A DNA stretch of 64,000 bases from Hymenopellis radicata (Eukaryota; Basidiomycota; Agaricomycetes; Agaricales; Physalacriaceae), in contig JADNRX010000246.1 of the NCBI GenBank assembly GCA_015501595.1, positions 19,793-83,792 on the forward strand. Direction: 5' to 3'. Below are positions 24,953-61,328 of the stretch, piece by piece; position 1 is the stretch's first letter, and every line of letters starts with the position of its first letter. The notes under the pieces are model-generated. The model saw only the letters and a program-made list of their open reading frames with translations, searched no databases and had not been told where the DNA came from. The position numbers and the translations under genes are program-made.

Positions 24953-25096
24953 TCAAGCGATAGTGCACAAGCCATCAGCTAATCCAGCATCTGAACGCTC
25001 AGCGTCTACAGGGACCTCGCAAGCAAGATCGACATCGATTAATAGTTGCATATCAGTCTCTGACGCGAGGACAGCGAGATTGACGAAAGAGTCCAT
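24953..25096 (-). CDS. Lipopeptide mating pheromone precursor (CTIA)
   Basis: A 47-residue frame starts MDSFVNLAVL and ends DGLCTIA before the stop. It has the full signature of agaricomycete B-locus pheromone precursors: an MD.F start, a small acidic pro-region, a Glu-Arg processing site (VPVDAER, residues 31-37) and a C-terminal CaaX box. In this family the CaaX cysteine is farnesylated and the last three residues removed, and cleavage near ER releases the mature peptide. Here that would be about ten residues ending in the modified Cys. The start is fixed by homology to the MD.F consensus; an in-frame ATG further upstream (25153) is ignored. An ACAATGGGA motif lies about 115 bp upstream. 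The class is firm; which receptor it activates cannot be read from sequence. Confidence 0.9.
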   Translation of the reverse strand: MDSFVNLAVLASETDMQLLIDVDLACEVPVDAERSDAGLADGLCTIA

Positions 25097-25212
25097 GGAG
25101 AGCTTGACTAAGTCGAGCTGTTGCGTATGCAGAGGCGGGGTGACGGATGGCAAATATCCATCCCACCGATCACTCTATATATCCAAAGCACGAGAAAAAG
25201 TCTCACAAAAGA

Positions 25213-25220
25213 ACAATGGG
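25213..25220 (-). promoter_or_regulatory. HMG-box-type motif upstream of a pheromone gene
   Basis: ACAATGGG is read on the plus strand, about 117 bp upstream of the minus-strand pheromone start at 25096. The ACAATGG core recurs upstream of the other pheromone and receptor genes. Confidence 0.4.
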
Positions 25221-25260
25221 ACACGAGGCAATCTAAGTCACGCCACATTGTGACATTGCT

Positions 25261-26118
25261 TTGCATTCCAGAATCTATCTGAATTTATCCATCATGAGGG
25301 GAGCGGAGATTTGGGCAGATCCGAGAACGATGCGAGGCAAAGAGCGCCGAAAGGCGGCCCGTCCAAGAGACGACGGCTCTCCGGCGCCCGTGCTTGCCTT
25401 CGGTGAATTGGCAGATTGGGCGCGGCGGTGGACCAGCCGCCACGTCCTCAAGCCTCCAGGTGGCATGGGAGCAGGCAAAGACGACCAGATTGAGTGCTGA
25501 GAATGTTCGACTCCGCACCAGGTTGGCATCTTCGGAAGCTCATCGTGAAATCCATATTTGGATGTTCCTACACCATCCTTTCCAATTGAGAGAACAAGGT
25601 ATAATCGGATCGATGCTTTAGGCAGTCCGGCGAGCAATCGTTGCGTGGCATTGACATCTAGCACGGCGGGGGGACTTGTACTTATCATCATGATGAGGGC
25701 GAAGGAGTTAACTAGATGCCGCTGTGCCGGGACCAAGCGGCGTCAAATAGACATCAACAACGTGACATGCCATTGTGCTGTCACGAACAAAGGCTTTCTT
25801 GGATGACATCGTTTCATCCTGGACTTCCTTGGGCTGTTGCATATCATGGATAAATCGGCATTTCCTTTCATGCGCAGTCTTTCACCGTTCGCTCTTCCTT
25901 CCCCTTCGCGCTCCTCGCCATGGTATGAAGCGTGATGGATTATCCAACCAAACCTAACCAAACACCAAACCACTTCCTATTGTACACCCGGGACCAAACA
26001 AAAGGCTTTTTGCGTTAAAAGCAAGCCACTCGTTACCGGTATGCCCCCAGATTAACATCACCCCACGGACATTCACCTTAACTTATCGCCCACACCGCAC
26101 AACCCACGTACCCTCTGA
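25261..26118. other. Intergenic between two divergent pheromone genes
   Basis: Together with 25097-25260 this forms a bidirectional promoter region for the pheromone genes at 25.0 (-) and 26.1 kb (+). Frames here are short and unconvincing. A CCATTGT (ACAATGG on the other strand) lies at 25770-25776. Confidence 0.5.
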
Positions 26119-26259
26119 ATGGACGCCTTCGTCGACTTGACGGAATTCACGTGCGATCCTGAGACGCTTGCATCGCTACCATTGTCTGCCTCCGACGTCC
26201 CCATTGACTCTGAGCGCTCGGATTCGGGCGAGGTCCATGCGTTGTGCGTAATCGCTTGA
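26119..26259 (+). CDS. Lipopeptide mating pheromone precursor (CVIA)
   Basis: A 46-residue frame begins MDAFVDLTEF and ends HALCVIA. It shows the MD.F start, the Pro-Ile-Asp-Ser-Glu-Arg processing region (VPIDSER, residues 27-33) and a CVIA CaaX box, all diagnostic of basidiomycete mating pheromone precursors. Predicted mature peptide: about ten residues after ER, ending in a farnesylated Cys. Its pro-region (VPIDSERSDSG) is clearly related to that of the 25.0-kb gene (VPVDAERSDAG), and the two genes diverge from a shared intergenic region. They are probably sisters from a local inverted duplication. The frame is intact, with no intron. Confidence 0.92.
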   Translation: MDAFVDLTEFTCDPETLASLPLSASDVPIDSERSDSGEVHALCVIA

Positions 26260-27521
26260 TGGTATGTTCTTCTTGTGTTCATATCACTTTCATGTATTGA
26301 CTATTTACTTCATCAGCAAGCGCACCAACTACTTTATTCCCTCTCTATTCTCCGAACTCCTCCATCCTCGCGTCACCTCTCCGCCCACCATATGCCCCTT
26401 TACCACAAACCGTTGTTCGTTCCGCAAGGGAGCGCGCCCCTAACTTATACCTGTGCGTCCTTTCAATCTAACCCCCTCACGAACGCCTGGATCATAACCC
26501 GCGTAGTGCCTTTCTCCTCAACCTCCTTTGCTTTCATCTTTCTGCGTTCAGCCTTTTTGTACGTCCTCTCAGGTTCGGTTGTTGTGGATAGCGCTAACGC
26601 AAGTGTCATAGACGGACTACATACAAGACACAAACACACACACATTCTTTTCGTAGATAGATTGATTGTACTTTACCTGCCATCCTTTCTCCTTGTATGT
26701 ACTTTTATACACGACGGCGCGCATGCACAATCCCGAGTGCTAGTCGCTGGCACCGAATCAAAGAATGTACCAACACTTTTCCGCCGAGTACTCGAGAGCA
26801 GAGGAAGCAGACGAAAACTTCTTCAGCACTTCGGCATAGGTAGTCCGTGAGCTCTCGTCCAACTTACTAGGGCGTGAAAGGGCAGATGAGCATGACTACC
26901 GATGAGCCATGTATGTCGTCCTGCAACTGAGGTGATGGGTATTCAATCTCACGTCAGCCTCCCCACGGGCGGTGAAGCATGAGCGTGTAGTCCTCGAGAC
27001 GGGAGGAAGCTAAACTGACTGCCGTTGACATACGCTTGTTGGGCGAATCCCGCAGGCGCGTATGAACTTTTAGGCATAAAGCACTGGTACTACATAGTGC
27101 AGCACAGGTAGGACACAATTGTCGACTCGACGGCGAAGAGAGTGAGGCCATTGAACGCAGGTGCCCTTCGCAGTCGGTATTTCCAGTGTACAGATAGAAC
27201 ATCATTGACAGTTTCAGCGCTAAGGACGTACGGTCGGCGGTCGGCTTCCTTCCAGTTCGGAAGCCTTTGGACACGGATGAAGAGCCGAGAAAGGGGACAT
27301 TGACAGACGTTGATCTATATCGGAGAGCACATGTTTTCATCCGATGAACATCTGGCATAAGTATCGCTCATGCAAGAGCGAAGAGTCGGAGACGGAAGCT
27401 ACCCGGATCCGCCAAATGCCGATAAGTATGTAATCAGGGGATCATCATCATCATCATCAATTACTCGGCACGGACCTATCTAGATCGCCGGACGCTAGGC
27501 TACAGCACCATAATACTAATA
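26260..27521. other. Gene-free stretch downstream of a pheromone gene
   Basis: A plus-strand open stretch (26275-26850) and a minus-strand one (27358-26954) have no recognisable domain and poor coding character. A (CAT)n microsatellite lies at about 27446-27460. Confidence 0.5.
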
Positions 27522-27890
27522 GGAGGCCATGACTCGCCCACCGCGCGAGATTTTCGGCAACGACAAGGCGCGGAACCTCGCTCGTATGTTTCAGCATTCC
27601 GGTTTAGATGAGGAGAACAGTGCTGAACATTGAGTTTGCGCGGCCGAGGCCCGTTCACCTCATCCCCATGTCAGTGCCTAACTACGGACGCCACCCTCGA
27701 AGAGCTAGTTGACCGCATGGTAGAACGGAACGGAGCTGTTTCTGACAAAAAGCACTTTGAGGGATGTGTAGAGAGGGCAATGGAGGGTGGGCCATTGGTC
27801 GGTATCACCCTTGCGAACGGTATTCTTCTGGATCTGACAAGCGTGTCGCGCATCCGTCAGGGCATTATACGGAGATGTAAACATGTGCTA
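27522..27890 (+). pseudogene. Inverted partial copy of the MYND gene's last exon
   Basis: This block is nearly identical, in opposite orientation, to the last exon of the MYND gene at 37565-37955. It shares MTRPPREIFGNDKAR, LEELVDRMVERNGAVSDKK and GCVERAMEGGPLVGITLANG. It differs by small deletions (about 11 bp after GAGGAGA, and another before the TCGAT/GTCGAT region near 27840-27855) and by scattered substitutions, so the frame is broken. No upstream MYND exons are present. Similarity starts at AGGAGGCCATGACTC and ends just after the stop codon. Confidence 0.85.
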
Positions 27891-28749
27891 GCAAGAACAT
27901 GATCCAACTGTATGTCGTGTATGAGTCAAAGGGCCTCGATGGGGCATAGCAAGTAATACTTCACCTGCGAACACAACTTCAAACTCGGTCATCGCCAGGA
28001 ATTGGTGGTTTCCTTGTTGTTTCGTTGAGTACTGTATGTCCGCGATCATCAGATTGTCGTAGCCACCGGCCCACCTTCAGGGTTCTTCTCAATTTCTGAG
28101 ATTTATTTCATTGTAGTCTAGGGGCATTCAGTTCCTCAGAAGCAAACATGTACTCCAAAAGAGGTAGACTAAGTACATCCTCTCGCGCATTACCGTGACG
28201 GTTGATAACTCAAACAACAAACCCCTACTAAGATAGGTTTGACCACCGGCATATTAGTTGAATGGAAAATGCGTAACCTCCATGTAAATGGACCCTACTA
28301 GTCAATTGGGCGAGGCTCGAGTCCGTAGCTCGTATACTTATCACACTGCTCGATGCCTCCAGGAAACGCCTTCAGCGAAGATTCAAGCCGTGCTCAGGCC
28401 TCCCTCTCTATCCCTGATCTCGCTCTGACCGACATCAGACTGAGAGAAACTTCGACCGACGTGATTTGGGGGTAGTTACACTAAGTATATGTTTAATTTA
28501 CCGAGAGTGCACGGGAGGCCTACAACTAGTACAAGAACTCTGCGTAGACCTCGGTGAAGTCTACACAGCCTGAGTAGGTCTATAGGAAGCATATGATTGC
28601 GCCTTTTCACTCAAGGATTCGCAAAAATGTAACATGACTGTTTCTTGAAATTCATATATATATTCATTCGCCCATGTTCGTGCAGTCTGAGTCGCTCGCA
28701 TTACATTTGTACAGTTCCACCTCATATTGTTGAATCCAAAGTCATAAGT
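27891..28749. other. Gene-free stretch, nothing recognised
   Basis: Moderately AT-rich with no open frame of note. It may hold the 3' flank of the OPT gene. Confidence 0.5.
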
Positions 28750-31700
28750 CTACGTGACTGGCAGTTTTCCCGTCGAAGGATAGAAGCCTATTAAAAGTCA
28801 TGTTAGACCAGAACTTGGGCAGCATGGGGAGGAGACATACATCGTTCGACCGAGTCCGCGTTGTTGCCCCACCAGGCGGGCATCGAGATAGTCTTAACAG
28901 CGCTGAAGGCGATGAAAAGGATAAGCATATTGCTGACGGAGATCGACATCAGGACAGAAAAAGAGTGAAGGCGAGGTGTTCTCACAAGTTGTACCCTGTA
29001 TCGCAGCAGCACCGGATATATAGGCGTACTTCTTCCAGAAGTTGTACCGGTCTATAAAGCGTAAGAAGCGACAAATGGTCGGCCAGTAGACCAACTCACA
29101 TCGCTTGAAGTACAAATGGTTAACAGTTCCGAGTAGGAACAGGGTGAAGAAGGTGTTGGAGATGTTTCCGTAGCTGTTAACGCGATGAGAAATGGAGACA
29201 GTCGTGGATGTGATGATTACTAACAAGTACTCAAACTTGTCTGCGAAGATGGGAACGCTAACGCGGTTGAAGCCCCACTTCGGTCGGAGGCGATGACCGA
29301 CATACAGTAGGCACGGTACAATCGCGCCAACGAGAAAACCGTACAGCTATGAAGTACGGCACGTCATGATCAATAACAGACAGTCTTCATTGCCGAGGTG
29401 GTCACCTACCATAGGCGAATATATCGGATCGTTGAACAACTTCTTCGGGCCAATCAAGGCAAACGAGATGCTTTGATTGTTCAACGAGATAACTGTTTGA
29501 CCCTGAGAGAACAAGTAAGTCTCCGCTTGGCATTCAGGATGTCGCGATAAGGCGTACCGTCCACTGATGGTTCGGATCAGATTCTTCGCCGGTTAAGATC
29601 TTGCCTTTGGTGGCGCACACCCAGAGGATCGTCGCATAACTGAACGTTGTAAGCAAGGTTAGGTGGTTGACCGTATCACACGTACTTGACGGGTACCCCG
29701 ACCAGGATGCCCCAAATTTGAGCGAGCATAACAGCTCTGGGTGGGACGTGATAGTAATGTCCGCTATCAATGCAATGAGCAGGGTATCTAGAGACCAATG
29801 AAGACGACATACAGTTTCATATCGGAGAGCATGCTCTGGGCCTCGTACCAGCCTGAAGCGAATTTCAATATTAGGAGATTATGGCGAAGGAGCAGCATAC
29901 ACTGTCCACTGATAACACGATAACTTAGGGCTCCAATAGGGTGACGCGAGCCGCCCGCATTGATAGCATATCCGTAGAAGAGTTCGTTGAAGTAACCGAC
30001 CTGCATACCGTATCCGGACACGGCGTAGATGTAACCTAGAACCGTTTGTATGACTGGAAGGATTGAACGGAAGCGCAGAAACGTACCCATAGGTACAACG
30101 ATGAGCGCGCCAATTGCAATTCCGATAAACAACATGTAGATTGGCATGTACACTGTCAAGGCGTTCAGAAAAGCGCAAAGGATAATCATATTGCGTGACT
30201 GACAAACTCCCTTCGCCGTGAGGACAACTAGCACGATTAAAGAAAAACTATATGACAGTGAGTCGGAATCGGAGATGAAGAGCGACAAGGAACTTTACGC
30301 ACAAGAACAAGGCAAGGTTCCACCAAAGAGGAACTACGGGATACTTGCGAATCATTTGAGTGAGCTACATATCAGGACATCAACGACGATCAGTATAGAG
30401 TAGTCGAGCGCGAGGACAAAAGACGGACCATATCATTATGCGCATTGCCGCTCTTTCTCTGCGCCTGGAACGTCCTCCAGATGGTTGGCCCATGGAATAG
30501 CGCACAGCCCACGAACGAACCGACATAGGCAACGTACGAGAAGAAATCTACATCAGATTAGAATCGGCCTATGCTACGCGAATGGAGGTGCTCACAGTTC
30601 CACCTGAGTTGCGCACTCATCATCGGCGGCCCAATCTCATTGAAATACGTCTCGTTTAGAGTATAGTCGGGCAACAGCAACTGCGCTGTCGGATATGTAC
30701 TGCCGTTCCTCAATCGCAATGACTGGCTCTGTACGGCGTACTTGTCCGACTCCCATACTCCTGTGAGGTGCGCGATGGGGATCAAGATCCATGCGCCAAT
30801 GATTCCCGCCGCAAAGATGTTCACCTGCGCCCAATAGGGGTAGTAGATAAACTGCGAGCCAATATTCGACCAGTCAAGGGTGATGTTCAACACACCAGCG
30901 CCTCCCAAACCAGAACCGAGGAACTGCGCAGTAGGGTTGCGGCTGAACCAACAGAGGAGAGCGAGCGACGAGAGGAAGGGGAAGACATACTACAAAGCGA
31001 GGGTGAGGGCTTGTGGAAGGAAGACCAGATGACACGCACCTCCGGGAGAAATTGCCAACAGAACAGCGCAAGGATGCCGTACCAGAAGATGTTCATTTGC
31101 TTGCTCGACGTTTTCGATTTCTCAGCAAGAGATCCGCGCATGGCCTTGAACACGGCCGCCTGCTGCAGGCTATGGAAAGGTAAGTAGATCGACGAGACAG
31201 AGTAAATGGCAACTTGCTGAGAGGAAACATTGTGGTAGGGTTTTCGATCAAGAAGATTCGCGCGAAACTAGCGAAGGAGAACCCCATAAACACGGCGGCC
31301 CACATGAACAAGATTGCAAGCCAGCCATTCATAGGTGCATCGTAGAAGACAGCCAGCGGCGCCAAGACGTAATCGCCCAAGTTATTGGTCGCACCGGTGT
31401 TTGCACTGAAGGGAGATGTTGAGGAATACTAGGTAACTGTGCAGGAGAGTGAATGACATACGCGAGAACAATGGCAACATGTTCCTTGACATTAAATGGT
31501 CCGGGGTTGAGCTGGAATTTGAACCGTCCGAAGCCAACTTCTTTCTCAGGAAGACTTGCAGCGAGAAGGCGTCCAAAGTACAGAGAGGCAATCTGCACGA
31601 AGTAAACTAGAGACAAATTTGAACATCAATGAGAGCTTCGAAACAAAGTGTAGCTTACTGGAGTAAGGGATGTACGTGGTCTGCATGCGGAAATCAAATC

Positions 31701-32127
31701 AGAAATGACATATGGAAAGGCGGAGAAACAGCGCTCACACGGAAGAAACCCATTTGCGTCAGCCAAGCACCGAGGGCGGTGAATATCGCGGAGAGAACAT
31801 AGAATCGCCACGTGAGCACGGGCATATCCAGGTCGTCCTCGAAGTCACACAGCTCGCGCACGATTTGTGGGAGAACGCTATAGGCCGGGTCGGCGTCATC
31901 ACCTACAAAAGACGATAAATCAATCCATCACCTGTGGCTTGAAGACTACACATAAATAGACGTTACACACCTTTGATATCTAAGACATGGTCGTCAAACT
32001 CGTCCAAGGGTCTGTCCTGCTTGTGAAGTTCTCCACCCGCCTCTGCAACATCTACCTTCTCATCCAGGGAGCTCTTCTCGCTGGATTTCTCGTGAGGCAG
32101 CGGTCCCGTGTATGGAACGTCGTCCAT
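28750..32127 (-). CDS. OPT-family oligopeptide transporter
   Basis: About 15 exons read along the minus strand. The N-terminal tail is acidic and soluble (start chosen at MDDVPYTG, 32127). Many membrane segments follow with family landmarks in order: FRTTYIPYS, QIASLYFGRLLA, NPGPFNVKEHV, ANTGATNNLGDYVLAPL, GGAGVLNITLDWSNI, GCALFHGPTIWRTF, VPLWWNLALF, GYGMQVGYFNELFYGYAIN, SRHPIG.LSYRVISG and, at the end, SMPAWWGNNADSVERC. OPT proteins import oligopeptides or metal-chelating peptides through the plasma membrane by proton symport. Two exon joints (near 31195 and 29000) work only if one G is added, matching other single-base losses here. The stop at 28750 follows a strong GTATGT donor after VERC; a read-through alternative ends at 28803. 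Lying inside the mating locus, it may be a passenger. Confidence 0.85.
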
Positions 32128-33824: not shown

Positions 33825-33974
33825 CTATGCGATGACGCACAAGTTCGAGTAGTTTCCCTCCGGAGCGTCGGCATCCACGACGAGAGGCACTGAGCGCTCG
33901 GCGTCCATTTGAGACGCGACATAGAGCGTAACTGCATCCTCGAGCGGTATGAAGAGTGTCTCGAAAGAGTCCAT
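33825..33974 (-). CDS. Lipopeptide mating pheromone precursor (CVIA)
   Basis: A 49-residue frame starts MDSFETLFIP and ends YSNLCVIA. The MD.F start, a Glu-Arg site (MDAER, residues 23-27) and a CVIA CaaX box identify a mating pheromone precursor. If processing occurs after ER the product would be about 19 residues, longer than the ten or so predicted for its neighbours, so a second processing site nearer the C-terminus (for example around DADAPEG) is possible. It lies about 440 bp downstream of the receptor gene at 34.4-35.9 kb on the same strand, the classical pheromone-receptor pairing. An AACAATGG motif is about 180 bp upstream. Confidence 0.93.
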   Translation of the reverse strand: MDSFETLFIPLEDAVTLYVASQMDAERSVPLVVDADAPEGNYSNLCVIA

Positions 33975-34416: not shown

Positions 34417-35884
34417 CTATCGTGTAGTGGATTTAGAGAAAAACGAAGGAAATGACATAGGTCTCGATGAATGTGAAATGGGTGAGAGGTCAGGTGATAT
34501 ACGACGAAACTCGCCCAAAGAAGGGTGTGTAGTGGCGCTGTCCAAGCCATAATAACTAGGACATATGCTTTCCTCGTCATGCATATCCTTCCCCATCTTT
34601 GGAGAAGGACATGAGAACTCGGAGTCGACAGCGGTCGTGGTTGGCGTGGTTGGGGCATCAGGCTTCGAGTCTCGCAAAGAATTCGCGGACAGATTTGGGA
34701 GTTTAATGATATTATTGTCGCGTCGAACGCTGAAAGATAATGAGAAGGGAAGCCCGAAATAGCTCGAACACGTACTAGGATGGACGAAAGCTTGCGCCTG
34801 CCTCTCTCAGTGGTTCTGCAGGTCGACGCAGCACGACACGATTAAACCAGCGAAGACACGAAGCATACTCTTTCATCGCCTCCCGCCCAAAGGAAAAGAA
34901 GGCGAAGAACAGCACCGACGAGATAGGGAGCGTCCACCAGATCGCGTACGTGAGGCGATATATGTTGTCAGGTATAAGAACTTGAGGAAGTTGGCGTATA
35001 CGGCCGAAGTCCGTATGCACGTCCTCCCAGCTGATCCAAGGACGAAGACCGGTCCTCATCGTGAACCACATGTTGAGTGCGGTAATGAGGACGGACCAGA
35101 AGATCTGCACAATCGACATCGACATGAGACGGAAGTAGTGACCCGATGTAAGCGCAGAGTTCTTGGACTGTAGATGCCGCGCAAATGTTATTCTACGTAT
35201 CCAGAAATGATGCAGTGCCATGGCTGGCGAAAATCAGAAAGGATTAGGCCGACAGTGAATCAACACAGACCTGAGTAGATGCCAGAGGCGACGGATACCA
35301 CTAAAGCGGGCACCCAGAGGATACAGATGGAGGCAATGGAGTTGTATATATGGGGACGGCAACCGAAGCCCTCGATGATATCGAACCGATGTCCTTGGAC
35401 GACGTAATCTAAATGCCAAATCAGCCAAGAACGAATGGAAAGAGCGCAAGGCATACGAAGGGCCATGTAAATGATAGGAAGTATGAAGCACAGAAGGAAG
35501 TTCCAAATCTGACGACGGCGTTTGTCTGCCAGAGACGTCTGGACCTGGCGCGTAGACGAGACTTGCTCAAGCTGAATGCACAGGCAGAGGATCGCAGCCG
35601 GCAAAGCAAGATCGCTTCCTATCCCAATTTTGGTGGCTGAGTGAAACATAAGGATTGCGAAGGAATAATGTGAAAGGTTACTCACTAATATCACACCAGA
35701 CAGGAATCTTAACGATGACATCGTCACCCCACACGATAGCGTTGACACCGTTAATCAGGTTGCCGAGAAACAGCCAGACAGTAATGGCGATGGTGGGAAC
35801 AGTTCCCGCTCTCCAGTGCCAGGGTAATGGCGCAAGGACCAAGAGACAGCATATGAAAGAGATGACTGGGAACTCGACGTGCAT
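34417..35884 (-). CDS. STE3-type mating pheromone receptor (first copy)
   Basis: Exons 35884-35686, 35636-35457, 35408-35271, 35223-34776 and 34729-34417 give 425 residues with GT-AG introns of 46-49 nt and no breaks. It is a seven-helix receptor of the fungal Ste3 (class D) family. It opens MHVEFPVISF, then LPLPWHWRAGTVPTI, INGVNAIVWGDDV and IPVWCDI. The family signature VVQGHRFDIIEGFGCRP lies in the third exon, followed by RHLQSKNSALTSGHYFRLM and a long cytoplasmic Ser/Pro-rich tail in the last two exons. It senses farnesylated peptide pheromones from a compatible mate and signals through a heterotrimeric G protein. Pheromone genes lie on both sides (33.8 and 36.4 kb). A GGACAATGGG motif is about 113 bp upstream. 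Confidence 0.95.
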
Positions 35885-36403: not shown

Positions 36404-36544
36404 ATGGACTCCTTCCAAGACTTCTCCGTCGCTGCGTTTGCTGCGACGATGGAGGGTATCCAGTCTCTGGATGCTATCGGGAAGACACCTCTCGATGAGG
36501 ATCGCGACCAGGAACTATATCAGGCCACTTGCACTATTGCCTAG
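36404..36544 (+). CDS. Lipopeptide mating pheromone precursor (CTIA)
   Basis: A 46-residue frame begins MDSFQDFSVA and ends QATCTIA. MD.F start and CTIA CaaX box are canonical. The processing site is Asp-Arg (LDEDR, residues 30-34) where its relatives have Glu-Arg; charged variants of this pair are known in the family. The predicted mature part is about nine residues ending in farnesyl-Cys. It is divergent from the receptor gene at 34.4-35.9 kb (520 bp between starts) and lies between that receptor and the MYND gene. A TATA-like box and an ACAATGG-core motif are in the upstream 140 bp. Intact, no intron. Confidence 0.92.
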   Translation: MDSFQDFSVAAFAATMEGIQSLDAIGKTPLDEDRDQELYQATCTIA

Positions 36545-37564
36545 GGCGACTCAGCCCTCGTCGTAAGCTCCGCCTTGAGTAAATATGTTCATGTCTGACT
36601 ATTCTCATAGACTACCGCGACACACGTCACGGGTTAAATGTGTCCTTCCCTCAATTCTTGTACGTGTATCTGCTCCTCGTTGTCTTTGGAAGGTCTAAAT
36701 CTCATTCAAGGTCCACAACCATGCCAAACCTTCGCAGTTGATCTGCGAGAGCCCCTTTACTGCCGCCATCGGGCCTACACGAGCATTTATTACGTCTCCC
36801 TCTTTATACTCGTCCCTTCCTTCTGTTTTTCCGGGACTACCATGTCATCGCGTTCATTACCCCTTCTCGATGCTGCTCTTATTGGATGATGATGTTGTAC
36901 GATACCAATCTCTTATTTATTCGTATCTATTTGCTATAGTTATTCGTTTGTACTATAAATGTCGTTCTATTTCCTCACTTAGCTCTGCTTTTTACCCAAG
37001 AATGTCAGACAAATATTGGCCAAATCAGTCATAGAGTCACACTTGGAAATTGCCTGGTTCCACTGGTCTCCGAGGACCTGAGAATTCGAGGAGACTTTCA
37101 GGATTGAGTATCAGCTTTGGACATCTACGTGCATCTTCCTTCCGTGGACATCATAATCATAGTGCTTCTATTTCAAGAGAACGCGATGATTTCGCCTTGC
37201 CAGGTCCCTGTAACGGATACTCCGTCTTGGGACCAAGCGAGCACGACTAAGTCCTATATTCGTATGAAAGTGGACCTAAATGCGCGACATGGTGGTAAAA
37301 GAAAGAGTAACAGTACCGTACGTAATGGGTCAGGCTCCCATAAGGGGAATGCCCCCTTACAGTCCCGGCGGGGGGTGGAGTAGATTTTAGGTGGATATGG
37401 AGTAATATATGCATCTTTGGAGCGCGTGCTAGCTCTCCAGTACTCCCCATTTACTACTGGCAATGGCAGGCTTGAAGCTTGAAGTGGTAGATTCATCTAA
37501 AGTAATACTTACTACAGTTCCCCACGGAAGCCTTTGCTTTATATACGACATACGTGGTTTTTCA
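36545..37564. other. Intergenic, nothing recognised
   Basis: 3' flank of the pheromone gene and of the converging MYND gene. Only short frames; no RNA or repeat recognised. Confidence 0.55.
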
Positions 37565-39614
37565 CTAGCACATATTTACATCTCCGTATATCTCAACAGG
37601 ATAGATGCCCCGCCGGATGCGCGACACGCTGGTCAGATCGACAAGAATACCATTCGCAAGGGTGATACCGACCAACGGCCCACCCTCCATCGCCCTCTCT
37701 ACACATCCCTCAAAGTGCTTTTTGTCAGAAACAGCTCCGTTCCGTTCTACCATGCGGTCAACTAGTTCCTCGAGGGTGGTGCCCGTCAAGTTAGGCACTG
37801 ACATGGGGATGAGGTGAACGGGCCTCGGCCGCGCAAACTCAATATTCAGCACTGTATTCAAGGGGATCTCCTCATCTAAACCGGAATGCTGAAACACACC
37901 AGCGAGCTTCCGCGCCTTGTCGTTGCCGAAAATCTCGCGCGGTGGGCGAGTCATGGCCTCCTCAACGGTCGCATACAAGGCTGCGGCATCTCTTGGTGAG
38001 ATTGGCAGTAGCTGCGAGCCATCTGGGTGGTCGAGTTAATACAAACGAGGACCGACGACGAAATAGAACCCACTGAGACGAGCAGCGTCAAGCCTGGAAC
38101 AATGAACCTTATGACCTCCCCGAGACCAATGCTCTTTCTGGCACGCGTGCGAACAGTAGATGGCGAAAGAGCAGCCCAAGCACTGCTGCAGATCGGCTTT
38201 GGTGCAGCGTCGAGTGCCAGACTTGCAAGGACACTAAATATTGATGAATGAGTTGAGTGGCGAACGGATAAAGTCGCTCACGTTTCGGTTGACACAAGGA
38301 CACCGTGTAGAAGAGACATCGTGACTTTTCATCCACTCGCGTCTCGTTCGGACTAGCTTATCGAGCTCTCTGTAAGCTTCCAGCACAGGACTGGACCCAT
38401 CCGCCAAAGACTGCCGCTCGATAAGTCGTACGGACTTTCTGAAGAGGGACAGCAACGACCGATACATAACGAAGCCAGTAAGGGTTGCGATGATGCTGAG
38501 GAGGGATTTCTCCAGCTCATCGGCACTTACACCCGCTCGCGCGTAGACGTTCGGATGACGCGAGATTGGTTCAACACGAATGACAATTTCCAGGATGTTA
38601 GCCTGCAGGATGAGTGCCACGCTGTTTGCGTGAGCCTGTAAGAGAAGCGCGTCAATTTCCCTCATAACACGCGAGAGAATGCGCGGGCATGATTCACGGT
38701 CGAAGTTCAGCACACGGTGTGCAAGGCGGCAGAGCCACGTCAGAGCGTTGTGCGCCAAAAGAGCGCGGACACAGATAGGGGAACAAATCCTGGGGATGGC
38801 CATCGCCTCCAACACCATGGCTATCACACCTTCAAAGTCCTGTGGCGCTGGCTCGTTGACTAAGGAAACGACTCCTTGAACGGAGGCTTTGGCAACCTCT
38901 ACCGGCCTCTTCTGGACAGCATGGAGCACGACGCTGTCCTCACTAGACCCGAAGGAAGGCTGATCAACCTCCTTGCCGAACATGGACAGAAGGATAGTCG
39001 CCAACGCCACTTGGGATATATAACACCCCGCCGCGGACACGCATATCCAACAATTCATGAAAAAAGGGACAAAGCCCGGCGCATCGCGAATCCGACAGTA
39101 CAGCGACGGATACTGCGCAAAGGCATGGATGAGGAGAGAAATGCACTCGATGAGGTCCTCAGAATGAGCAGACAGACTCGTGAAATCCGCCGAAAGGATC
39201 CCCATTCCCTCGAGAAGAAGATAAAACCACTCTGTAAGAGTAGGGAGTATAGAGGATAAAAATGGAAGGAAATTTTGACTGGGATGTAGATCCTCGTCCA
39301 GGAAATACTGGAGAATTTTGAGCGAGGGAATGGCATTCAGCACAGGCAGGGAGTCCATGCGGGCGTCCGTGAATGTTCGGGCAGACGCCAGCGATTCACT
39401 GGATAGATGGTGCACGAGGACCGGCATAACGTCCGAGAGAGAGATACCAGCGTTCCGTTTCATACACAAATTATGGAGCTCGATGGTGGCCGAAGCATCC
39501 CCCTGCAACGATTTTGCCTAGGGCAATTTAGGCCCGCAAGCTCACACTAAGTAAATGCAGTACCTTCAAATCGTTGAATTTTTTATGGGAAAAGGTTCGC
39601 GTTTGATGGAACAT
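37565..39614 (-). CDS. MYND zinc-finger protein (first copy)
   Basis: Exons 39614-39564, 39517-38282, 38233-38074 and 38022-37565 give 634 residues with no break. A long helical N-terminal half (residues about 20-420) of unknown function is followed by a MYND finger, CPCKSG...CLGCSFAIYCSHACQKEHWSRGGHKVHC, whose Cys/His spacing is canonical. MYND domains bind proline-rich partners, often in transcriptional repressors. A C-terminal domain of about 150 residues follows (EELVDRMVERNGAVSDKK). The second copy at 61.7-63.7 kb has the same four exons, with a third exon of exactly 160 nt in both. Large MYND families are usual in mushrooms; a mating role is not known. Confidence 0.85.
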
Positions 39615-47199: not shown

Positions 47200-50100
47200 G
47201 CAACAGTAAAGATATACTCGTAAAAGGCCCCGTCAGTTCCAATGATGTTACGCATCTGATGGTGAATCTCCAACTGCCCAGTGATGACAGCGCAGCGTCA
47301 AAGTGCACGCGGTTCTGACCCTGCCTGAGCCTGAGCATCGTTTCCCGCGATTACCAGGCTGGGAGCGCTCGGTCACTGCCAACCTTGACGATCACGATAT
47401 ACCTAGAACAGTATCTGAGTACTTCACCCACGAGTATTTGGGAAATGACTTACGGTATGATGTGTCCTTCAAACTCGTAGAGACCGGAATACACCTTTCC
47501 ATAGTTCAACGCCTTCGATGCCGCTCCGACCGACTTGAACAGCAGCGGGTCCAGATCGAGCTTCAGATCCATACCAAGGATATCCAGCACGATACGAGGC
47601 GTAGTCCGGTCGTTCCCGCTTCCAATAATATTCCCGTCGCAGATGATGAAGATGAGCTTCCGTTTATCGTCGTAATTCAGTGCCGCAAGAGAGTTCACCG
47701 TGCGGCGCAACGAGTCCTCGCCCTCGGTATAACACGGTACCTGGCAGATGATGAACTTGTCTTGCAACTCGGGATTACGCTTGCCGCCGAGTTGAAGCGC
47801 AGCCAGAACTGTGAAGAAGAGACATTAACTCGAGGCTATTCAAATATAAATGAAACGTACACCATTCAAACCCATAGACGTCATCATGATAGCCGAAAAG
47901 ATCAGCAGCATGTAGTTCTGAACCTGGCATCGGGCAGTTTTGCGAAAGTCGGTCATCCCGACGTACTTAGAACGTGTTGTTCAAACAGTTCATGTTCTGG
48001 GCCTGGTACGTCGAGTTCAAGCCGGCAAGGGCCTCTTTCAACGGCTTGGTCACATCTTGCCCAGACTGCTGCTTAAAAACATCCTCAACATCGGAGGACA
48101 AGAACTTGTAGTCGGTACTGGTCGAGAACGTCGTCTGAGTGCTAAAGTAATCCGTCAAGTCATAGACGTTATTCTCGTAAATACCCCAGATCCTGGAGGA
48201 CGTGCAATAAGGATGATGGTCAAAACGAACTGTAGGGAACGTACTTTTCCATTTCTTGGCTCTGAGCATCCGCTTCGATGGTCGATGGATCCCAGACGAG
48301 CGGCCCCTTGAGGTACTTTTTCATCTTTGGCTGGAATGTGTTTGTATACCAATCCATATTTGCCAGCTGGCTGTCAGTATACGACGTGAGCTTGCCCGAC
48401 GTGTGATCCGCAGTGGGCGCAACGTCCGTAAAGTTCTTGGGTGTGATCGCAAGAATATCGTCGGACACCAGCCCATCGCACCGAAACGTCAAGGGCACAG
48501 GGAAGTAATACGTCATATCCGTGCCAGCCAGCGACTCCAGCGTATCAAACCCGTTACTGGCCATGCCTGTAACATCGCTGTAGTCGCCTTGGACAAAGTC
48601 GGTCATGTCGTAGACCTTGCCCTGCACCGACACTCACCAATCGTTGTTGGCGGTATGCTGAGCCACCTCGTTGGTCGCCCATGCATTGTCGTATTTTGGA
48701 CACAAGAGCTTGCCAAACTCGACGATATAGAAGATGATGATGCCGTTGAAGAGGAGGATGAGCCAAAAGATGGTGAGCTTTTTCGCGCCACGCGAGGGGG
48801 ATATCTGGGCGCTTCATGCGACCAATGATGCGAAGCGCGAAATTCGGTATGAGCCACGTGCAGAGCCACACGATGCGTAGCCACCATCGCCGTGTCCGCA
48901 AGGTAGGAACCTCCTCCACCACATTGGGAGCATCCTTGACGACGACGAGTCCTTCCTTCCCAACTAGAAAGTGAATGAGAATACTGACCAAATGAGGAAA
49001 ACAAAACTTACGAGCAGTATATGCAGGCGCGTCGCCATGCTGACTCTCCTTCACATACCATTGAGTCGAATCATTCCACCCATCGTCACCACCACCCCGT
49101 GAGTCAGAGCCCCTCGCTCCATCTGCCATGTTGGGGGTATGTAGCCCGCCCTGGGCATATGGCCCGACATTTGGATCCCGATATTGTGTCGCATTGGTCC
49201 CCGTCCTCGTCAACAACAAATCATCCGCACTCTCTCCCATAAGGCCCTGCCCTTCCCGGTGCGTATACTCCGTCCCGTCATCCGGCGCCACGCTCCCATC
49301 TTCATCGTCAGCCATCATCCGCCTCGCGTGTTTCACATGGGCGCGTAAAGGATCTTCGACCATCTTCCATTGCGCGCTGTAAGACAGCCAGATCATCCTA
49401 TGTCCGAGCGCAAAGTCTACGCCCTCCTTCCATCCGTTCGCACGAGCACATTGGGTAACCCGCTTAGTAACGGAACCCGCGGCATGGTTGGAACATAGCG
49501 CTCGCAAAACTCGTAGTCGGCGACGTACTCTGCCGAGCGCCAAGATGCCAATCCGGGAGTAAGAAGGAGCAAATCTGTACCTTGACACGGTGCTTGTCGA
49601 AAAAGTTGGACGACCCAGAGTCGTTTGGACGTATACACGAGAGTGTCGACAAGTGGGCATTCTCGATCGTGGAGAGGAGGTTTGATAGTGCAAAGTTGAT
49701 CTGAGGGGTATGTCTTCTGGCGATCGAGTTTGGGGGCTTCCTCTGCAGGAGGCGAGTATGAGGAAATGGTAGTGGGAGACCAGAGGGGAGGAGAAGAGAC
49801 CTGCGCCTGGACGACGATGCTTCTCGGCAGCTAAGGACGGCCCAGAGAAGAGCTTGGCAACGAAAGCCTCGGTCGAGTTGCGAAGTAGAGGTACAAATGC
49901 CGAATCCAGAAGATCTGCATCCTTCTCAATGAAGCGGGTTATGTCGTACGACACTTGGCCGGCGTAGAGGTTGATACCGAAAAGAGTGCGATCCGCCTGG
50001 CCGCTGACACTGGGGCTGGCAACGAAGGATGTGTGTACACCAAACTTGGTCGCCAGGTCCTGCAGGACTTCGTTTCGGTGGTCGTCGCCTTTGCCGGATT

Positions 50101-50450
50101 TGAATGACTAACACCCCTTGGCGACGACACCCAAGCGACCACCCGGTTTCCGCTGGACCCGCTGCTCAACTTGGGGGCCTCTAAGCAGTCCACGCAGGCC
50201 ATGTTGTCCATGGTCTGGATCTGAGGTAGGGCAATAACACTATCCTCGAAAATGTATCGCTGGACGTAAGAGTGTAGGATATCCTCTGTAAAATTGATGG
50301 CAAACTCGTCAAATGCGTTCTGACCGTAAACAGCGACGAGTGGGGCTTGGCCTCCCAAGGACGTGGACTGAATGCCGGATGCACCACAGCTCTGGAAGCC
50401 CGGCTGGTCTAGGATGACTGGCGAGCCGAGTCGGTGGGATTGTCGACCGC
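47200..50450 (-). pseudogene. Chitin synthase with myosin-like motor region, both ends lost
   Basis: On the minus strand the sequence starts inside a myosin-motor-like domain (LDQPGFQSCGASGIQS; NAFDEFAINFTEDILHSYVQ) without its N-terminal part. It continues through VSYDITRFIEKDADLLD, a charged linker, membrane segments (LLFNGIIIFYIVEF) and a cytochrome-b5-like region (VYDMTDFVQGDYSD). It then enters the start of the glycosyltransferase domain ([72 protein letters not shown]). It collapses at about 47210, before the catalytic acidic motifs and the QRRRW box, so it cannot make chitin. It corresponds to the motor-bearing chitin synthase class of fungi. Confidence 0.8.
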
Positions 50451-51420: not shown

Positions 51421-51424
51421 TTCC

Positions 51425-54978: not shown

Positions 54979-55084
54979 TGTACGGTTAAGTTTCGTGACC
55001 GGACATGTTTTGTTGATTTTGACCACCGTGATTTAGATAACGTTCTCGTGTAACACAAAGTACAGTAGTATCTATTCGCCGTAC

Positions 55085-57760
55085 ATACGCCACCACCATA
55101 TCATTGTATCACCTTTGGATGCTTTCATCTCCCCCATTCCGACTCTTCGACACCAGGCAGGCTACAGTCTTCGGGCACGTTGCACTGCTCGTCCTTCCCA
55201 GCCATCTCCCGCCTCGACCCCCGCCCACAAGCCATTTACCTCTGTGAAATAAGCAGCCAAGTAGTATATGTTCCGTGGTGCACCTCGTTCATCGCAGTCT
55301 AGTCTTTTCACAGGCATACATGACAATCCGGAGCGTAGAAGACGGCGCTGCGTCTCATTCCAAGCCTACGTAGCTCACGGGATACTAGGCTCGATACCCC
55401 ATTTTTGGTCTCCAATATCACTCGATCTTGGTTAAGTATTCGAGGCCGTCTGCCAGTGGTTAATCCGAGGATCCGAAACCACATACTCATTGGCTTTCAG
55501 ATACTTTGTTTTCAGTGGTTTTGATCCAGTGTTGGGGAGGACGAGTTCCGATCTTCCTTCTACGTCAACAAGGACAAGCCATCCACATGTCACGTTGCCA
55601 TTATGAGAACGAGGTCGTTGGATCCCCCAGCAGAACTTCGGAAACCCAGGCAAGTGTTGGCACCCTTCTTCGAACGTGTCCTGACGCTAGAAGGACCCCT
55701 TGTCGAGCGTGCTGTGAACCTAGCATCGGTTCCGCTTCTCTCTTACCGCAGACAGATCGTCGAAGGGTCTGGACCGCTTAGCATAGACGGCGAGCGGCCA
55801 CATTTTTCCATGCCTCAGTGGTCACTCTTGTGCAGTCACTCCTAAAGTGCGTGTCGGAGAAGCAGCTAAGTACAATCCTCAGGCTCCTGCTAAGCCTCGG
55901 GTGCTAGCCTTTCGGACGCTACTGATGTCGTCTTCAGATTTTTTTTGCCATCCGCTTTGATTGGGACTCCCGAGTCCTTGGTTGTTCAACGTTCGACCCT
56001 AGTGGTCTTTCGTGGGGGGTTGTAACTTGTCTGGTCAAGCGGATATCTTCGCACTGTCCAATAGATGCTATATAGAGTATGCAAGGGAGGTAACTATGAG
56101 AAGCCAAGGGTTGTGAGTGTGTGGGTAAAGGCTGGTGAAGCCTTCGGGCCCCAACGACTTCCTGCCAGGTAGACGCGGTCAGCTGCGAGGGTGGGCGGGA
56201 CCAACCTCGTATATCGCGTCAACTGAGGGATAGACGTTAGAGCCATGGGTGGAGAACGATGGTCTCATGGAACCTGCATGTCTGTTTTGAGCATGTTAAC
56301 ACAATCCGTTGTGTCCCAAAGACATGAAGGTCTATAATAAAAGGGAGGGAAGGGTGGGGAAAAGAGCGAAAGCCGGAGCCAGTCGACGGTGTGCTGTTCG
56401 AGCGCGCACCGTCGACGTCGAGGTGATGACGGTAACGAAAGAGGAAGGAGTTACCGCATCACGTGTCGGTGCGAAGACCTCAAGCTGCTTCATACTCGTG
56501 CCTCGTACATCACAGCTCAACAAACTTCCTTTGAATGCGTCGAATTGTTTTTGTACTCGTATTGAGGCTTTTATTATGATCCAGACCACGGCCGAGGTTC
56601 ACTGCATCCGAACGTGGCTTGTAGACTGGTGGTTGGACATACACCGTGGCTAGTTGATCAAGCGGCTAGCCGGCGGTGACTTTCGAGTAGTGCATGCCTT
56701 TTTCTCTCTCCAATTGCTCTGTTTCACGCTCCTCTTGCCTTTGCCGCAACGCCTGATGAACTTCTCTAGTAGGTCGACTGATGAAAGGGGCCGACTTTGT
56801 CTACCGCTTCAGCCCGTGACACTGACCGCAATGCTATTTTGCACCGCCTCGCGCGTTTCTCGCCGGCGTATCTGGTCTAGCGGCTAGTTACCCCCGTGTC
56901 AATGGAGTCCTGAATCAAGATAACTTCTTTTCCTCCTCGTCCTTGTTTCGCGAGGAATTATAACCTTTTGGTGAAGGAGAGTATAGATCAGGCTGTGCTC
57001 TGCATGTGTCCATATCGTTGTATGTGAGCGTAATGAGGTCGCGCTGTAGGAATGAGGTGTCCGAGTCGTCTCACAATGTGTCCGACGAGCTTCAAGTTGT
57101 CACCCTCCCAACCGCATTCAGAGTTCATCCCTCGCTTTTTTTTGGTGAGCGTGTCCTGGCGCTAGAAGGCACTTCTGCCAAGGTCGAGCAAACTGACCGT
57201 AGACAGATCGTCGAACGGTTTGTGGTTGGCAATTCGGAGTCTAAGATGATAATTTTTTCTTCACAGTGCTTCTGAGTTGTTCTCATCTCGCCCTAGAAGA
57301 AGCATAATCCTTCGTCTCTCTCGCTGGGAGCCCTCCCAAGTCTACGTGGCTTAGTGGGTACTAGATTTGATTTCAATGCATCTTGAAACTTTTTGTCCTT
57401 GTTCCGCGAATACTTATCGGCGGGTACTGATAAGCCTTCTTTGCTCTATATCGCTCGGCCTTGTTGTTTCTTTGGTTATCCCTCCCGGGTGTACTTGGTC
57501 CGAGGGCGTCTGGTCCACCGGAACAGCCACATACTCATTACAGCGAACAGCGATTTAATTTTTAGTGGTCTGTTTTTATTCGGGAGAACTATTGAAGTAC
57601 GTGTCCACTTGTCTTGTCTAAAGTTGTCTTTCGACCACCACCACCACCACCAAGACTTTCATACTTGGAAATCAGACTAGAGACGTGGCGGCTCGTTGGT
57701 AGAGCGGTTAGCCGTTGATGCTTCTGGACGGTACTTTTTTCAGGACTTGACCCACTGTAC
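55085..57760 (+). repeat. Tandemly arranged copies of the dispersed tRNA-module repeat
   Basis: The same ordered words recur at about 55.1-56.1 and 56.9-57.75 kb: AAGTCTACGTGGCTTAGTGGGTACTAG-type, GAGG(C/G)CGTCTGGTCCA.CGGA, CACATACTCATT, TTTTTAGTGGTC, CGTGTCCTG(A/G)CGCTAGAAGG, and CCG(C/T)AGACAGATCGTCGAA. tRNA-like heads lie at about 56033, 56645, 56868, 57505 and 57688. Copies are 80-90 percent alike by eye and no open frame is shared. I read this as a nested or tandem array of SINE-like elements rather than a gene family. Confidence 0.5.
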
Positions 57761-58604
57761 ATCCGCATCTACATGGCCAACTAAGTATTCGGATCTGAGG
57801 TTGGCGGCCTCGCCCGGACATTCGCGTGATGCGCGCGCCTCGGATCCAACCTACTTAAGAGCATGGACGCGTAGTCGATTGATAATATAACACCTACTTT
57901 CACGTTCGCCGTCACAACAGCGTCAGCCTTCAAATTATTCTTCCTCTGGGGACAAAGACAAAGCTCCAACGTGCGAGCGAAAAGGCTTCCGTGATTCCAT
58001 CGAGACGCGGCAGGTCGACCGTCCAGTTTGAAATATCATAAGTTCTTCTAAATCAAAACTTACGAAGAAAGGTGCATTAGCAAAAAGAACTGTTCTTCTG
58101 ACAGAGGGAGCGATCTGGCTCCACGTCATGTCAGTCCTGCTATCCTGGATTGGACAAGACTCGGCGGGATGTTCAAGGCGCTGACAAGGAAGGTCGTGGT
58201 GGTCGAGGGTGCCGCGGTCCCTGCACTCCGTAGCGCATGGGCCAGGGTAAAAGACATGGGCCGACAGCGCGCGCAGCGGAAAAACGGGAACAGCATCAAA
58301 TGCGGACCTGTCAGCGCCAGCATACTTGGCCCATGGGACATGACTCATGAGTATGGCCTCACCAACGTCGTTACCGAGGCACCTGCAAGGCTTTGGGCTG
58401 TCCATCAACTGTCCATGCAGACTAGTCCACCGAATGTTCAAACTGTGAATTGCGGAGGGTCATTGTACACTGGAATTTCGATCGTTGAGTACATCGTAGA
58501 GTAGGTACCAGACCGCGTAACGTGTAAAATAACGATATTCGATGAATGTCTACATATACAACATAGGAAGGAAGGCGAAGGAATAGTGTCACAGACAGTA
58601 TGAA
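57761..58604. other. Gene-free stretch, nothing recognised
   Basis: A minus-strand open stretch at 58441-57935 has no recognisable domain and is not supported as a gene. Confidence 0.45.
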
Positions 58605-59056
58605 AAAGAAACCAAGAGGAAATGAGAAAGGAGAAAGGTATGGTAAGTCGGTGAGGGGGAGGGGGTGTCGCGGGGAAAGAGCATAGGAAAGGATCGGAGA
58701 CGAACGGCAAGTGGATCGCGCAACTCATCAGCACGACGACGACATGAAAGAAAAACACTCATCGTGTTAGGATATAACAGCGCGTGAAGAGGAATGCAGT
58801 AAAAAAGAAATCAAGAAAGGTCGGTGAGGGAGGGGTGGGTGGGTGTCGCGCGGAAAAGAGGATGACAGTAAAAAATAAAGCAAGAGGAAATGAGAAAGGA
58901 GGAAGGTCGGTGAGTGAGGGGGTGGGTGTCGCGCGGTAAAGAGGATATGAAAGGATTCTTTGGGAGACGAACAGCAGGTCTGCGCAACCTCATCAGCATC
59001 GACCGACAACCAAGAAAGGAAAAAACACCCACTCGCGTCTCATGATATAACACAGT
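58605..59056 (-). repeat. Duplicated 3' end of a pheromone gene with C-rich spacers
   Basis: Block 58605-58770 and block 58876-59056 share GAGGAAATGAGAAAGGAG(G/A)AAGG, GTCGGTGAG...GGGTGTCGCG, GAGACGAACGGCA/GAGACGAACAGCA, CGCAACTCATCAGCA/CGCAACCTCATCAGCA and a terminal GATATAACA. A third copy of GTCGGTGAGGGAGG...GTGTCGCGCGG lies between. In the left copy the last residues read AVIS instead of CVIS, so the prenylated Cys is gone. It is a truncated, dead duplicate of the pheromone gene next door. Confidence 0.6.
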
Positions 59057-59168
59057 TGTATCCTTCGCTGCCATCGCGGACCTCCTGGTCCACGGGCGCC
59101 AGATGTATGGGTATGGCGACGTCAACGTCTAATCCCGGTCCCCACTCTATGGTGGTAAACGCGTCCAT
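59040..59168 (-). CDS. Lipopeptide mating pheromone precursor (CVIS)
   Basis: A 42-residue frame starts MDAFTTIEWG and ends EGYNCVIS. MD.F start and CVIS CaaX box mark a mating pheromone precursor; Ser at the last position also favours farnesylation. No Glu-Arg pair is present; the charged processing region is probably QEVRD (residues 28-32), giving a mature part of about nine to twelve residues. It lies about 800 bp downstream of the second receptor gene on the same strand, repeating the layout seen at 33.8-35.9 kb. GGACAATGGG occurs 232 bp upstream. The gene is intact, unlike its truncated duplicate at 58.6-58.8 kb. Confidence 0.9.
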   Translation of the reverse strand: MDAFTTIEWGPGLDVDVAIPIHLAPVDQEVRDGSEGYNCVIS

Positions 59169-59967
59169 CGCATAAAGGTGATGATAACGATAGCGGACGG
59201 GATGGATGGAAAGCAAACCCTAACGGTCGACTTTCGCAAAGATTGGGAGGGACGGAAAGCAAACCCTAACGATCGACTTTCCAAAGATTCAAAGGTAGGT
59301 GCGAGTTATCGCTTCACTGACACCAAGAGCCGCCTTTATAACTATTTTCCCCCTGGCCGCATTGTCTAGAAACCAAATATTGTGGTACCAAATGTAAGAG
59401 GACAATGGGCGGAGTTTCAGAATGAATGCTTACCTTACTTAGGGGTACTTGCCATTTTGGAATATGTGGGTCCATCGTCCGATTCGTCGGGGAATTCATT
59501 GCTAGCAAGCCATCAATGGAAGTCGGAAGATAACATGGTTTATACAAGTTTTTATTGTCTTTTGTCTCGTAGGTATGTAAGTGTACATTGTTGTATTGTA
59601 AATCGTTAACCGAAAGCCAAGCCTGTGGCCAAAGTAAAATGTGCAATGAAGACGAAAGAAGAGAGATAATGATAGGGGAAATATAGATCTGCATGATGAT
59701 AAGCAAAGAGAAATGAGGCGCTGTGAGATGGAAAGAACGTAACAAACGAAGGGAAGGGCGTAATGTATCTTGACAGTCGTGCGGGTGAAGGAGTGTGAAG
59801 GCGTCAAGCAAGCGTCAAGTACAACATAGAGAAAAGACACGTGCGTAAGAAACTGCTATAGCTTCCTAGAAAAGTCCGTATGATGATGATACGGGTTGGG
59901 ATATGTATACGGGCGCTCCCGCCTCGGTGACCGGGAAGGAAGCGCCACGAACACCGGTACCAGCGAC
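59169..59967. other. Intergenic between pheromone and second receptor
   Basis: Includes a short direct repeat (GGAAAGCAAACCCTAACG.TCGACTTTC at 59209 and 59257) and the regulatory motif at 59400. No gene recognised. Confidence 0.55.
59400..59409 (-). promoter_or_regulatory. HMG-box-type motif upstream of a pheromone gene
   Basis: GGACAATGGG, identical to the ten bases upstream of the first STE3 gene (35997-36006), lies 232 bp upstream of the pheromone start at 59168. Confidence 0.45.
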
Positions 59968-61328
59968 TCATCGCGGCTGGGGTGAGAGTGGGAGGGGTGG
60001 TAGGCGTCGGCGGAGCGACTTCTGCGTCGCCTCCGAGCCGAGGTAGGTCGTCTCCGTCTCTGAACGAAGATCGAAGTCTGGTTCGTCCAGTGAGGAGTGG
60101 TACTTCTTCGGTGTAGGCGGACGGGGCGGGGTGAAGGTCGATGTAGGTGACACAATACTGGGGAGGGAAATGCCGTCCTTCTCGATACCAGCGCGTCGGG
60201 AGCCTTGTTTGAGACCTTTCCTGGACGGGCCGGTATTGGCCTGCATCCTGAAGACGTTGCGCTTAATCCAGACCCAGCACTTCCTATAATCATCTACCGC
60301 CTCCTTTCCGAACGCAAAGAATGCCACAAAGACAAAGGTCGACATGGGGATCGCCCACCATGAGAAGTAGTACGCCGTGCTCGTCTTGGGTGACATCGCG
60401 AGTAGCACTTTGGGAAACTGAGCGGCGCGCGCGAAGTTAGAGTGCACGTCCGCCCAGGTCGTCCATGGGCGCAGGGGAATCGCCATGGCGGTATACCACA
60501 GCGTGTAGGATGTCATGATGATGGACCAGGTCATTTGGAAGATGGACATGAGGATGAGTCGCAGGTAGCGCGAGGCGGTGAGCGCGGATTGGGGGGAGTT
60601 GAGGTGTGCGGCAAACGTCGCTCGGCGGATCATGAAGTGACGGAGGGCGCAGCCTACATAACGGTTAGTATGAGTGTCCAAGAAAGTGTATGGAAGGAAG
60701 ACATACCTGCGTAGATCAAGCAGGCAAAGGCCATCACGATGGGTGGGATCCAGACAATGAAGAGAGCCGGGATGGAGTAGTAGGTTGCTGGCCTGCAGCC
60801 ATATTCTTCGATGATGTCGAAGCGGTGGCCTTGGACGATATAGTCTGAAAGGAAAGTTAGCTGGAGGGAAAGGAAAACGGAAGAGAAAGGACCCACGGAG
60901 GACCATCATGACAACGGCAGCGCCAGACACATAATAGCTTCGAATATCATGCGGCGCTTCCTGTCAGAAAGCGTGGTCTGGGCGTAGCGCACAGAAGACA
61001 CTTTTTCGAGATGTATGCAGATGCACAGGCATCCTGCCGGGAGCGCAAACGTCGAGCCGATGATGAGCTTGGTAGCTAAAGCGCACTATTAGGACTGGCT
61101 GGCAGGCATGCAGGGGAAGGAAAACGCACTGATATCGCACCACACTGGAATGAGCTCTTCGGCGGTGTTGCCCCATACGATCGCGTCGATGCCATATATC
61201 ATGTTCATGAGGAACAGCCAAAATATGAGGGACAGCGTCGAGACATTACGCGCCCGCCAGTGCCACGGAAGCGGGAGGAGCAGGGTCGCGGCGGCGATGA
61301 ACGCAATAGCGGGGAATTCGGGACGCAT
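59968..61328 (-). CDS. STE3-type mating pheromone receptor (second copy), one apparent missing base
   Basis: Exons 61328-61130, 61075-60897, 60844-60707 and 60653-59968 encode about 400 residues if one base is added. It starts MRPEFPAIAF, then LPLPWHWRARNVSTL, IYGIDAIVWGN and IPVWCDI, with the receptor signature YIVQGHRFDIIEEYGCRP and a long Pro/Ser/Arg-rich cytoplasmic tail. Exons 1 and 3 have exactly the lengths of the first receptor (199 and 138 nt). Exon 2 is 179 nt against 180, and the frame slips beside 60912, where one extra G restores LPLVMMVL. Start 61328 is chosen over 61349 by alignment with the first receptor. Three upstream motifs of the pheromone-response type lie within 160 bp. 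As written the frame is broken; see the findings for why this may be a consensus error. Confidence 0.85.

Follow-up and report, generated by a model that had tools for sequence, protein, structure and literature searches.

Does a stretch of 64,000 nucleotides (nt) from Hymenopellis radicata contain a B (pheromone/receptor, P/R) mating-type locus, and are both receptor genes of that locus intact? The stretch, referred to here as the window, covers positions 19,793 to 83,792 of contig C570 (JADNRX010000246.1), and its end is also the end of the contig. All positions are counted from its first base unless another contig is named. The assembly comprises 75.5 Mb in 1,405 contigs. Passages of the genome paper name strain IJFM A160 (PMC8480192), which is presumably the source of this assembly.

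By its gene set, the interval 24953–61328 is a real B mating-type locus of a known kind. The sequence makes it very likely that these approximately 36 kb, from the P1 precursor frame to the R2 start codon, are the B locus of H. radicata, in which two STE3 receptors are located among five predicted lipopeptide pheromone genes. An earlier note on this DNA had classified the gene set as the P/R locus of Agaricomycetes, and this classification is supported by receptors from two groups, adjoining precursors with CaaX ends, and a MYND-type neighbour. P3 and P4 are located less than 0.6 kb from R1, P5 less than 1 kb from R2, and P1 and P2 8–9 kb from R1, while the start codons of R1 and R2 are about 25 kb apart. 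Of the 154 frames with at least 100 codons in the window, 22 distinct stretches were searched against Pfam, in addition to the five precursors (lengths below in amino acids, aa).

24953–25096, minus strand: P1 precursor, 47 aa, MDSF...CTIA; ER 15/14 residues from the C-terminus; PF08015 20.1 bits, just under the cut-off
26119–26259, plus strand: P2 precursor, 46 aa, MDAF...CVIA; ER 15/14 residues from the C-terminus; PF08015 26.7 bits, above the cut-off
33825–33974, minus strand: P3 precursor, 49 aa, MDSF...CVIA; ER 24/23 residues from the C-terminus; PF08015 13.2 bits, weak
34417–35884, minus strand: R1, STE3 family, 425 aa, intact; exons 35884–35686, 35636–35457, 35408–35271, 35223–34776, 34729–34417
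36404–36544, plus strand: P4 precursor, 46 aa, MDSF...CTIA; DR 14/13 residues from the C-terminus; without PF08015 match
59040–59168, minus strand: P5 precursor, 42 aa, MDAF...CVIS; EVR 14–12 residues from the C-terminus; without PF08015 match
59968–61328, minus strand: R2, STE3 family, frame broken; pieces 61328–61130, 61075–60912, 60844–60707, 60653–59968

Predicted pheromone precursor genes

The five short frames with an MD.F start and a CaaX end that the earlier note had listed were all recovered in place. They encode 42–49 aa and begin with MDSF or MDAF. A strict CaaX scan, which returns these five frames in the real window, returned none in 60 first-order Markov simulations of it, and a loose scan returned a single hit in the 60 (mean 0.017). 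Alignment of P1–P5 with two similar frames from contig C125, described in a later section, revealed invariant columns at M1, F4, one proline, the CaaX cysteine, and the isoleucine two places later.

Across the whole genome, the family profile PF08015 (Pheromone, cut-off 22 bits) gave four matches at E ≤ 10. Only P2 exceeded the cut-off, and the weaker three are on C236, C705, and C158. When the seven-row precursor alignment was compared with about 5.8 billion proteins, ten candidates shared words with it and none reached E ≤ 10, which supports the suspicion that the precursor genes are unannotated.

Receptor genes and their relatives

Exon borders of R1 and R2 were set by hand and checked against relatives; a spliced gene finder returned no R1 and part of R2. 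The introns of R1 measure 46–49 nt and include one unusual donor, GTCTGT. Its product matches the STE3 profile PF02076 over positions 1–292 of 292 with 309 bits. At least one receptor of the locus has an open STE3 frame after splicing, covering the full profile. Two seven-helix frames with the signature VQGHRFDIIE had been proposed: both are indeed STE3 genes with PF02076 matches and the motif, and R1 is complete after splicing, but the frame of R2 is broken twice.

The best protein match of R1 is Mucidula mucida P0001 with 84% identity over 321 aa, followed by P0002 with 77%. Since no entry among the best 120 of 520 database matches exceeds 84% identity, the R1 protein seems not to have been deposited. 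With its group mate Rcb2.42 of Coprinopsis cinerea (P0067), R1 shares 52% identity, and R2 is 55% identical to its group mates Balpha8 and BBR1 of Schizophyllum commune (P0154, P0162), so that about half of the residues differ in each case. A comparison of R1 with solved structures gave two matches only, both to an unrelated protein at E about 0.5. No STE3 match besides R1 and R2 was found on the contig with PF02076. Elsewhere in the genome, STE3 matches occur on seven contigs, two of which are 96% alike (C802/C857).

Two IQ-TREE trees with 39 and 44 rows were calculated, using 31 and 37 of the 193 fetched proteins. The rows C614, C1040, C802, C741, and C456 are pieces joined from hidden Markov model matches. 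C857, as a near copy of C802, was left out of both trees; the second tree also omits C741, whose branch is very long. The receptor-like rows are all from this genome, and no receptor-like protein of another species was included. Both trees place R1 and R2 in two different mating-receptor groups. Specifically, R1 groups with Mucidula, Armillaria and, further out, C. cinerea Rcb2.42 (support 99/98 and 98/98), and R2 groups with Armillaria nabsnona and Mycena and, further out, with Flammulina F1CZK6, S. commune Balpha8 and BBR1, and C. cinerea Q875K7 (99/96 and 98/96). C802, C614, C1040, and C456 form a separate clade outside both mating groups. Furthermore, R1 is closer to Mucidula P0001 (84%) than P0001 is to P0002 (78%), and these identities are consistent with balanced allele lineages older than the genera.

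With these results, it is highly improbable that both STE3 genes are non-mating, receptor-like genes and that the five frames arose by chance or encode unrelated CaaX proteins. Receptor-like STE3 genes are described as common in Agaricomycetes in passages of PMC8161036, and this genome has STE3 matches on seven further contigs. However, R1 and R2 both fall among known mating receptors, and the chance expectation of the precursor frames is near zero. In addition, receptor-like genes lack precursors according to the relevant passages of PMC5100862 and PMC8161036, to which the cluster on C125 may be an exception.

Several observations weigh against the assignment as the B locus. PF08015 does not detect P4 or P5 and matches P3 weakly; passages of PMC3140503 give Pfam scores as weak as E 0.45 for published Flammulina precursors. 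The cleavage motif is expected as an acidic/basic pair about 10–15 residues before the C-terminus; P3 has it outside this range, and P5 has an imperfect version, EVR only. The R2 frame is broken twice as assembled, leaving the second sublocus without an open receptor frame. P0001 and P0002 of Mucidula might be paralogues rather than alleles. The CLA4 kinase is a known neighbour of the B locus in some species, but its domain PF00786 is absent from the contig, and the eight genome matches are all located elsewhere; in the draft genome of Flammulina, CLA4 was likewise assembled apart from the locus, on another contig, as described in passages of PMC3140503. Finally, searches of the assembly with the DNA of the two receptor clusters and the P1/P2 region revealed no second B haplotype and returned dispersed repeats and short matches only.

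Near-identical contig pairs in the assembly suggest a partly resolved dikaryon. These include the RPB2-family pair C874/C261 (97%), C47/C1294 (97%), and C802/C857 (96%), and the PF00786 matches are also paired with equal or near-equal scores. The single bases missing from C857 relative to C802 are probably residual assembly errors. C741 was considered as the missing second B haplotype and rejected, as its receptor is diverged and no precursor was found in the 19.8 kb scanned around it.

The broken frame of R2

The first break is in exon 2, which runs into a stop in the fourth helix, whereas the downstream helix and VQGHRFDIIE are in a different frame. The second break falls between positions 60019 and 59996, in the tail, where another frame past the R2 stop matches residues 223–265 of P0178 with 84% identity. 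The assembled version of R2 would not yield a seven-helix receptor.

A deposited STE3-domain-containing protein of H. radicata, P0121, is the single receptor protein found in the database for this contig and corresponds to a model of R2 that spans the first break. It implies a 32-nt intron at 60992–60961 and exchanges the conserved stretch of the second loop and fourth helix for out-of-frame sequence before VQGHRF. The anchor motif is present in 185 of the 193 fetched proteins. Six of these 185 deviate at the tested positions; five of them carry substitutions there, and P0121 is the only one with unrelated sequence. The P0121 model is implausible at the fourth helix. Single introns of at least 30 nt with GT-AG, GC-AG, or AT-AG/AC borders that join exon 2 to the VQGHRF frame were listed; the P0121 model belongs to the two-intron solutions, which are outside this listing. 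Rescue of R2 by such an intron was rejected, as each in-frame candidate drops conserved residues of the fourth helix or second loop or needs a non-standard donor.

Two explanations of the breaks have to be weighed. We lean slightly towards R2 being whole in the living fungus and the breaks being residual single-base assembly errors, in which case both subloci would have working receptors. Errors of this kind would match contig C857, which is without 19 single bases compared with C802 in 4,656 aligned columns (C802 is without 7 in reverse), one of the 19 falling inside its receptor gene. The sequence beyond the breaks of R2 is still conserved, and R2 sits 2.7–4 kb from the contig end. Illumina and PacBio data, with Quiver among the methods, were used across the 14 genomes of the project (PMC8480192). 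On the other hand, R1, both MYND genes (one of them nearer the contig end), and a 527-codon BipA exon are all open on the same contig, and single-base insertions and deletions are fewer in two other near-identical contig pairs (7 in 5,946 and 3 in 1,406 columns).

Alternatively, R2 may be a recent pseudogene, a reading to which we give somewhat less than an even chance. The B haplotype would then keep one of its two receptors, with P5 still signalling to partners. The concentration of two breaks in approximately 1.2 kb of R2 coding sequence, compared with none in R1 or in the adjoining MYND frames, points in this direction, and loss at one of two redundant subloci would be tolerated. This is countered by the single-base losses of C857, which occur where error is the simplest explanation, and by the conservation past the breaks, which leaves little time for decay. 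If the breaks are real, the R2 sublocus of this strain would send, but not receive, signals. Whether nature has two-sublocus B haplotypes in which one sublocus is deaf hinges on this question about R2.

Proposed function and comparison with known systems

In the proposed mating function, the precursors are predicted to be farnesylated at the CaaX cysteine, trimmed, cut at the upstream acidic/basic motif, and exported. These peptides would act on strains that carry another B allele, binding and activating their STE3 receptors, and a G-protein signal would then set off nuclear migration and the fusion of clamp cells. P1–P4 with R1 and P5 with R2 would represent two subloci, and a difference at either one would be enough. 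For an edible group of mushrooms, the locus offers targets for markers and for breeding. No description of the present B locus of H. radicata was found in the literature searched on mating-type loci of Hymenopellis and Physalacriaceae.

The gene set is the same as in PR-a and PR-b of Flammulina, as far as these are described in passages of PMC5100862 and PMC3140503. As in the window, the PR locus of Flammulina velutipes has two receptors with their own precursors at two subloci, and its receptors fall in both main groups, like R1 and R2. It has three precursors of 46–54 aa with CaaX ends, in contrast to five of 42–49 aa here, and its subloci are 177–181 kb apart, compared with the 25 kb or so between the receptor start codons of the present locus.

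Oudemansiella raphanipes (= Hymenopellis raphanipes) is a close relative, in which the order of the B genes differs between two compatible monokaryons. Seven STE-like proteins were assigned to one contig by blastp in this species, and the passages that report this name neither precursors nor a broken receptor (PMC9961838).

A receptor cluster on contig C125

Contig C570 stops 2.7 kb past the R2 start codon, and the right border of the locus is outside it. This early end of the contig prevents a demonstration that the window spans most of one locus, as does a further receptor with two precursor-like frames near the end of another contig, C125 (positions of that contig):

5620–5745, minus strand: precursor-like frame ending in CIIA
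6666–8590, minus strand: STE3-family receptor, near the contig end
9041–9205, plus strand: precursor-like frame ending in CIIA

This cluster is the most unusual observation of the analysis, although it is outside the window. When the terminal 3 kb of C570 were compared with the initial 6 kb of C125, no overlap was found. The C125 receptor is outside both mating groups in both trees. It shares 29–36% identity with R1, R2, and five known mating receptors, and 32–37% with three receptor-like ones. The same precursor scan was applied to the surroundings of the six other STE3 loci and to the rest of the fetched DNA, 141 kb altogether, and detected no such frame; 20 simulations, each of 170,589 bases, gave none either. 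Looser CaaX frames do occur in these stretches, none of them with an MD.F-type start.

Receptor-like genes without accompanying precursors are described for Flammulina and S. commune in passages of PMC5100862 and PMC8161036, respectively. We tentatively suggest, while considering it rather unlikely, that a third, private pairing exists besides the two B subloci, in which the C125 receptor is served by its own two lipopeptide pheromones from the flanking genes. If true, at least one "orphan" lineage of mushroom receptors would have a genetically linked ligand, perhaps for self-sensing, and the cluster would be an exception to the published statement that receptor-like genes lack adjoining pheromone genes.

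Neighbouring genes, repeats and relics

Each receptor has a MYND-finger gene on its 5' side, and further features are located within and to the left of the locus:

12024–13949, minus strand: TypA/BipA-type GTPase, left flank; PF21018, PF00679
27521–27961, plus strand: inverted partial copy of the 3' part of MYND gene 1, 85% over 471 columns; left arm of an inverted repeat
31093–31428, minus strand: fragment of an OPT oligopeptide transporter, probably a relic; PF03169, E 5e-7, 65 of 623 profile positions; inside the R1 cluster
37565–39463, minus strand: MYND-finger gene 1, 5' of R1 and on the same strand; zf-MYND 3e-7; extent inferred from open frames
61873–63565, minus strand: MYND-finger gene 2, 5' of R2 and on the same strand; zf-MYND 9e-7; extent inferred, open first part 62324–63565, finger from about 62265

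MYND gene 1 shares 80% DNA identity with copies on C47 and C1294. The long first parts of MYND genes 1 and 2 are 27% identical, and the genome contains three further MYND-family matches, on C47, C1294, and C1395. S. commune Balpha/Bbeta resembles the present locus in having two receptors, precursors, and a MYND neighbour. According to passages of PMC8161036, its MYND gene is beside brl1, upstream of bar. In contrast, no brl-like neighbour is present here, since the contig has no STE3 match other than R1 and R2, and a MYND gene is found 5' of each receptor. Since such a gene is shared with S. commune, where it flanks brl1, the MYND neighbour of B receptors may be old.

The right arm of the inverted repeat, 37500–37962, is the 3' part of MYND gene 1, and the two arms bracket the 10-kb R1 cluster. 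The repeat at 27.5 and 37.5 kb was rejected as a separate element, as it equals the 3' part of the MYND gene. The inverted MYND copies around the R1 cluster are a possible substrate for inversion.

On the left flank, the BipA exon 12024–13607 has itself as its sole DNA match in the assembly. This flank also contains a bromodomain protein and a mobile element, which we take to be of the copia type. A retrotransposon piece with Pol_BBD, gag_pre-integrs, and rve domains is located at 19245–20180, left of the locus. Between the two receptors, a degenerate gene model at 47450–50211 includes a myosin-head match at 48554–50107 and is perhaps the relic of a chitin synthase.

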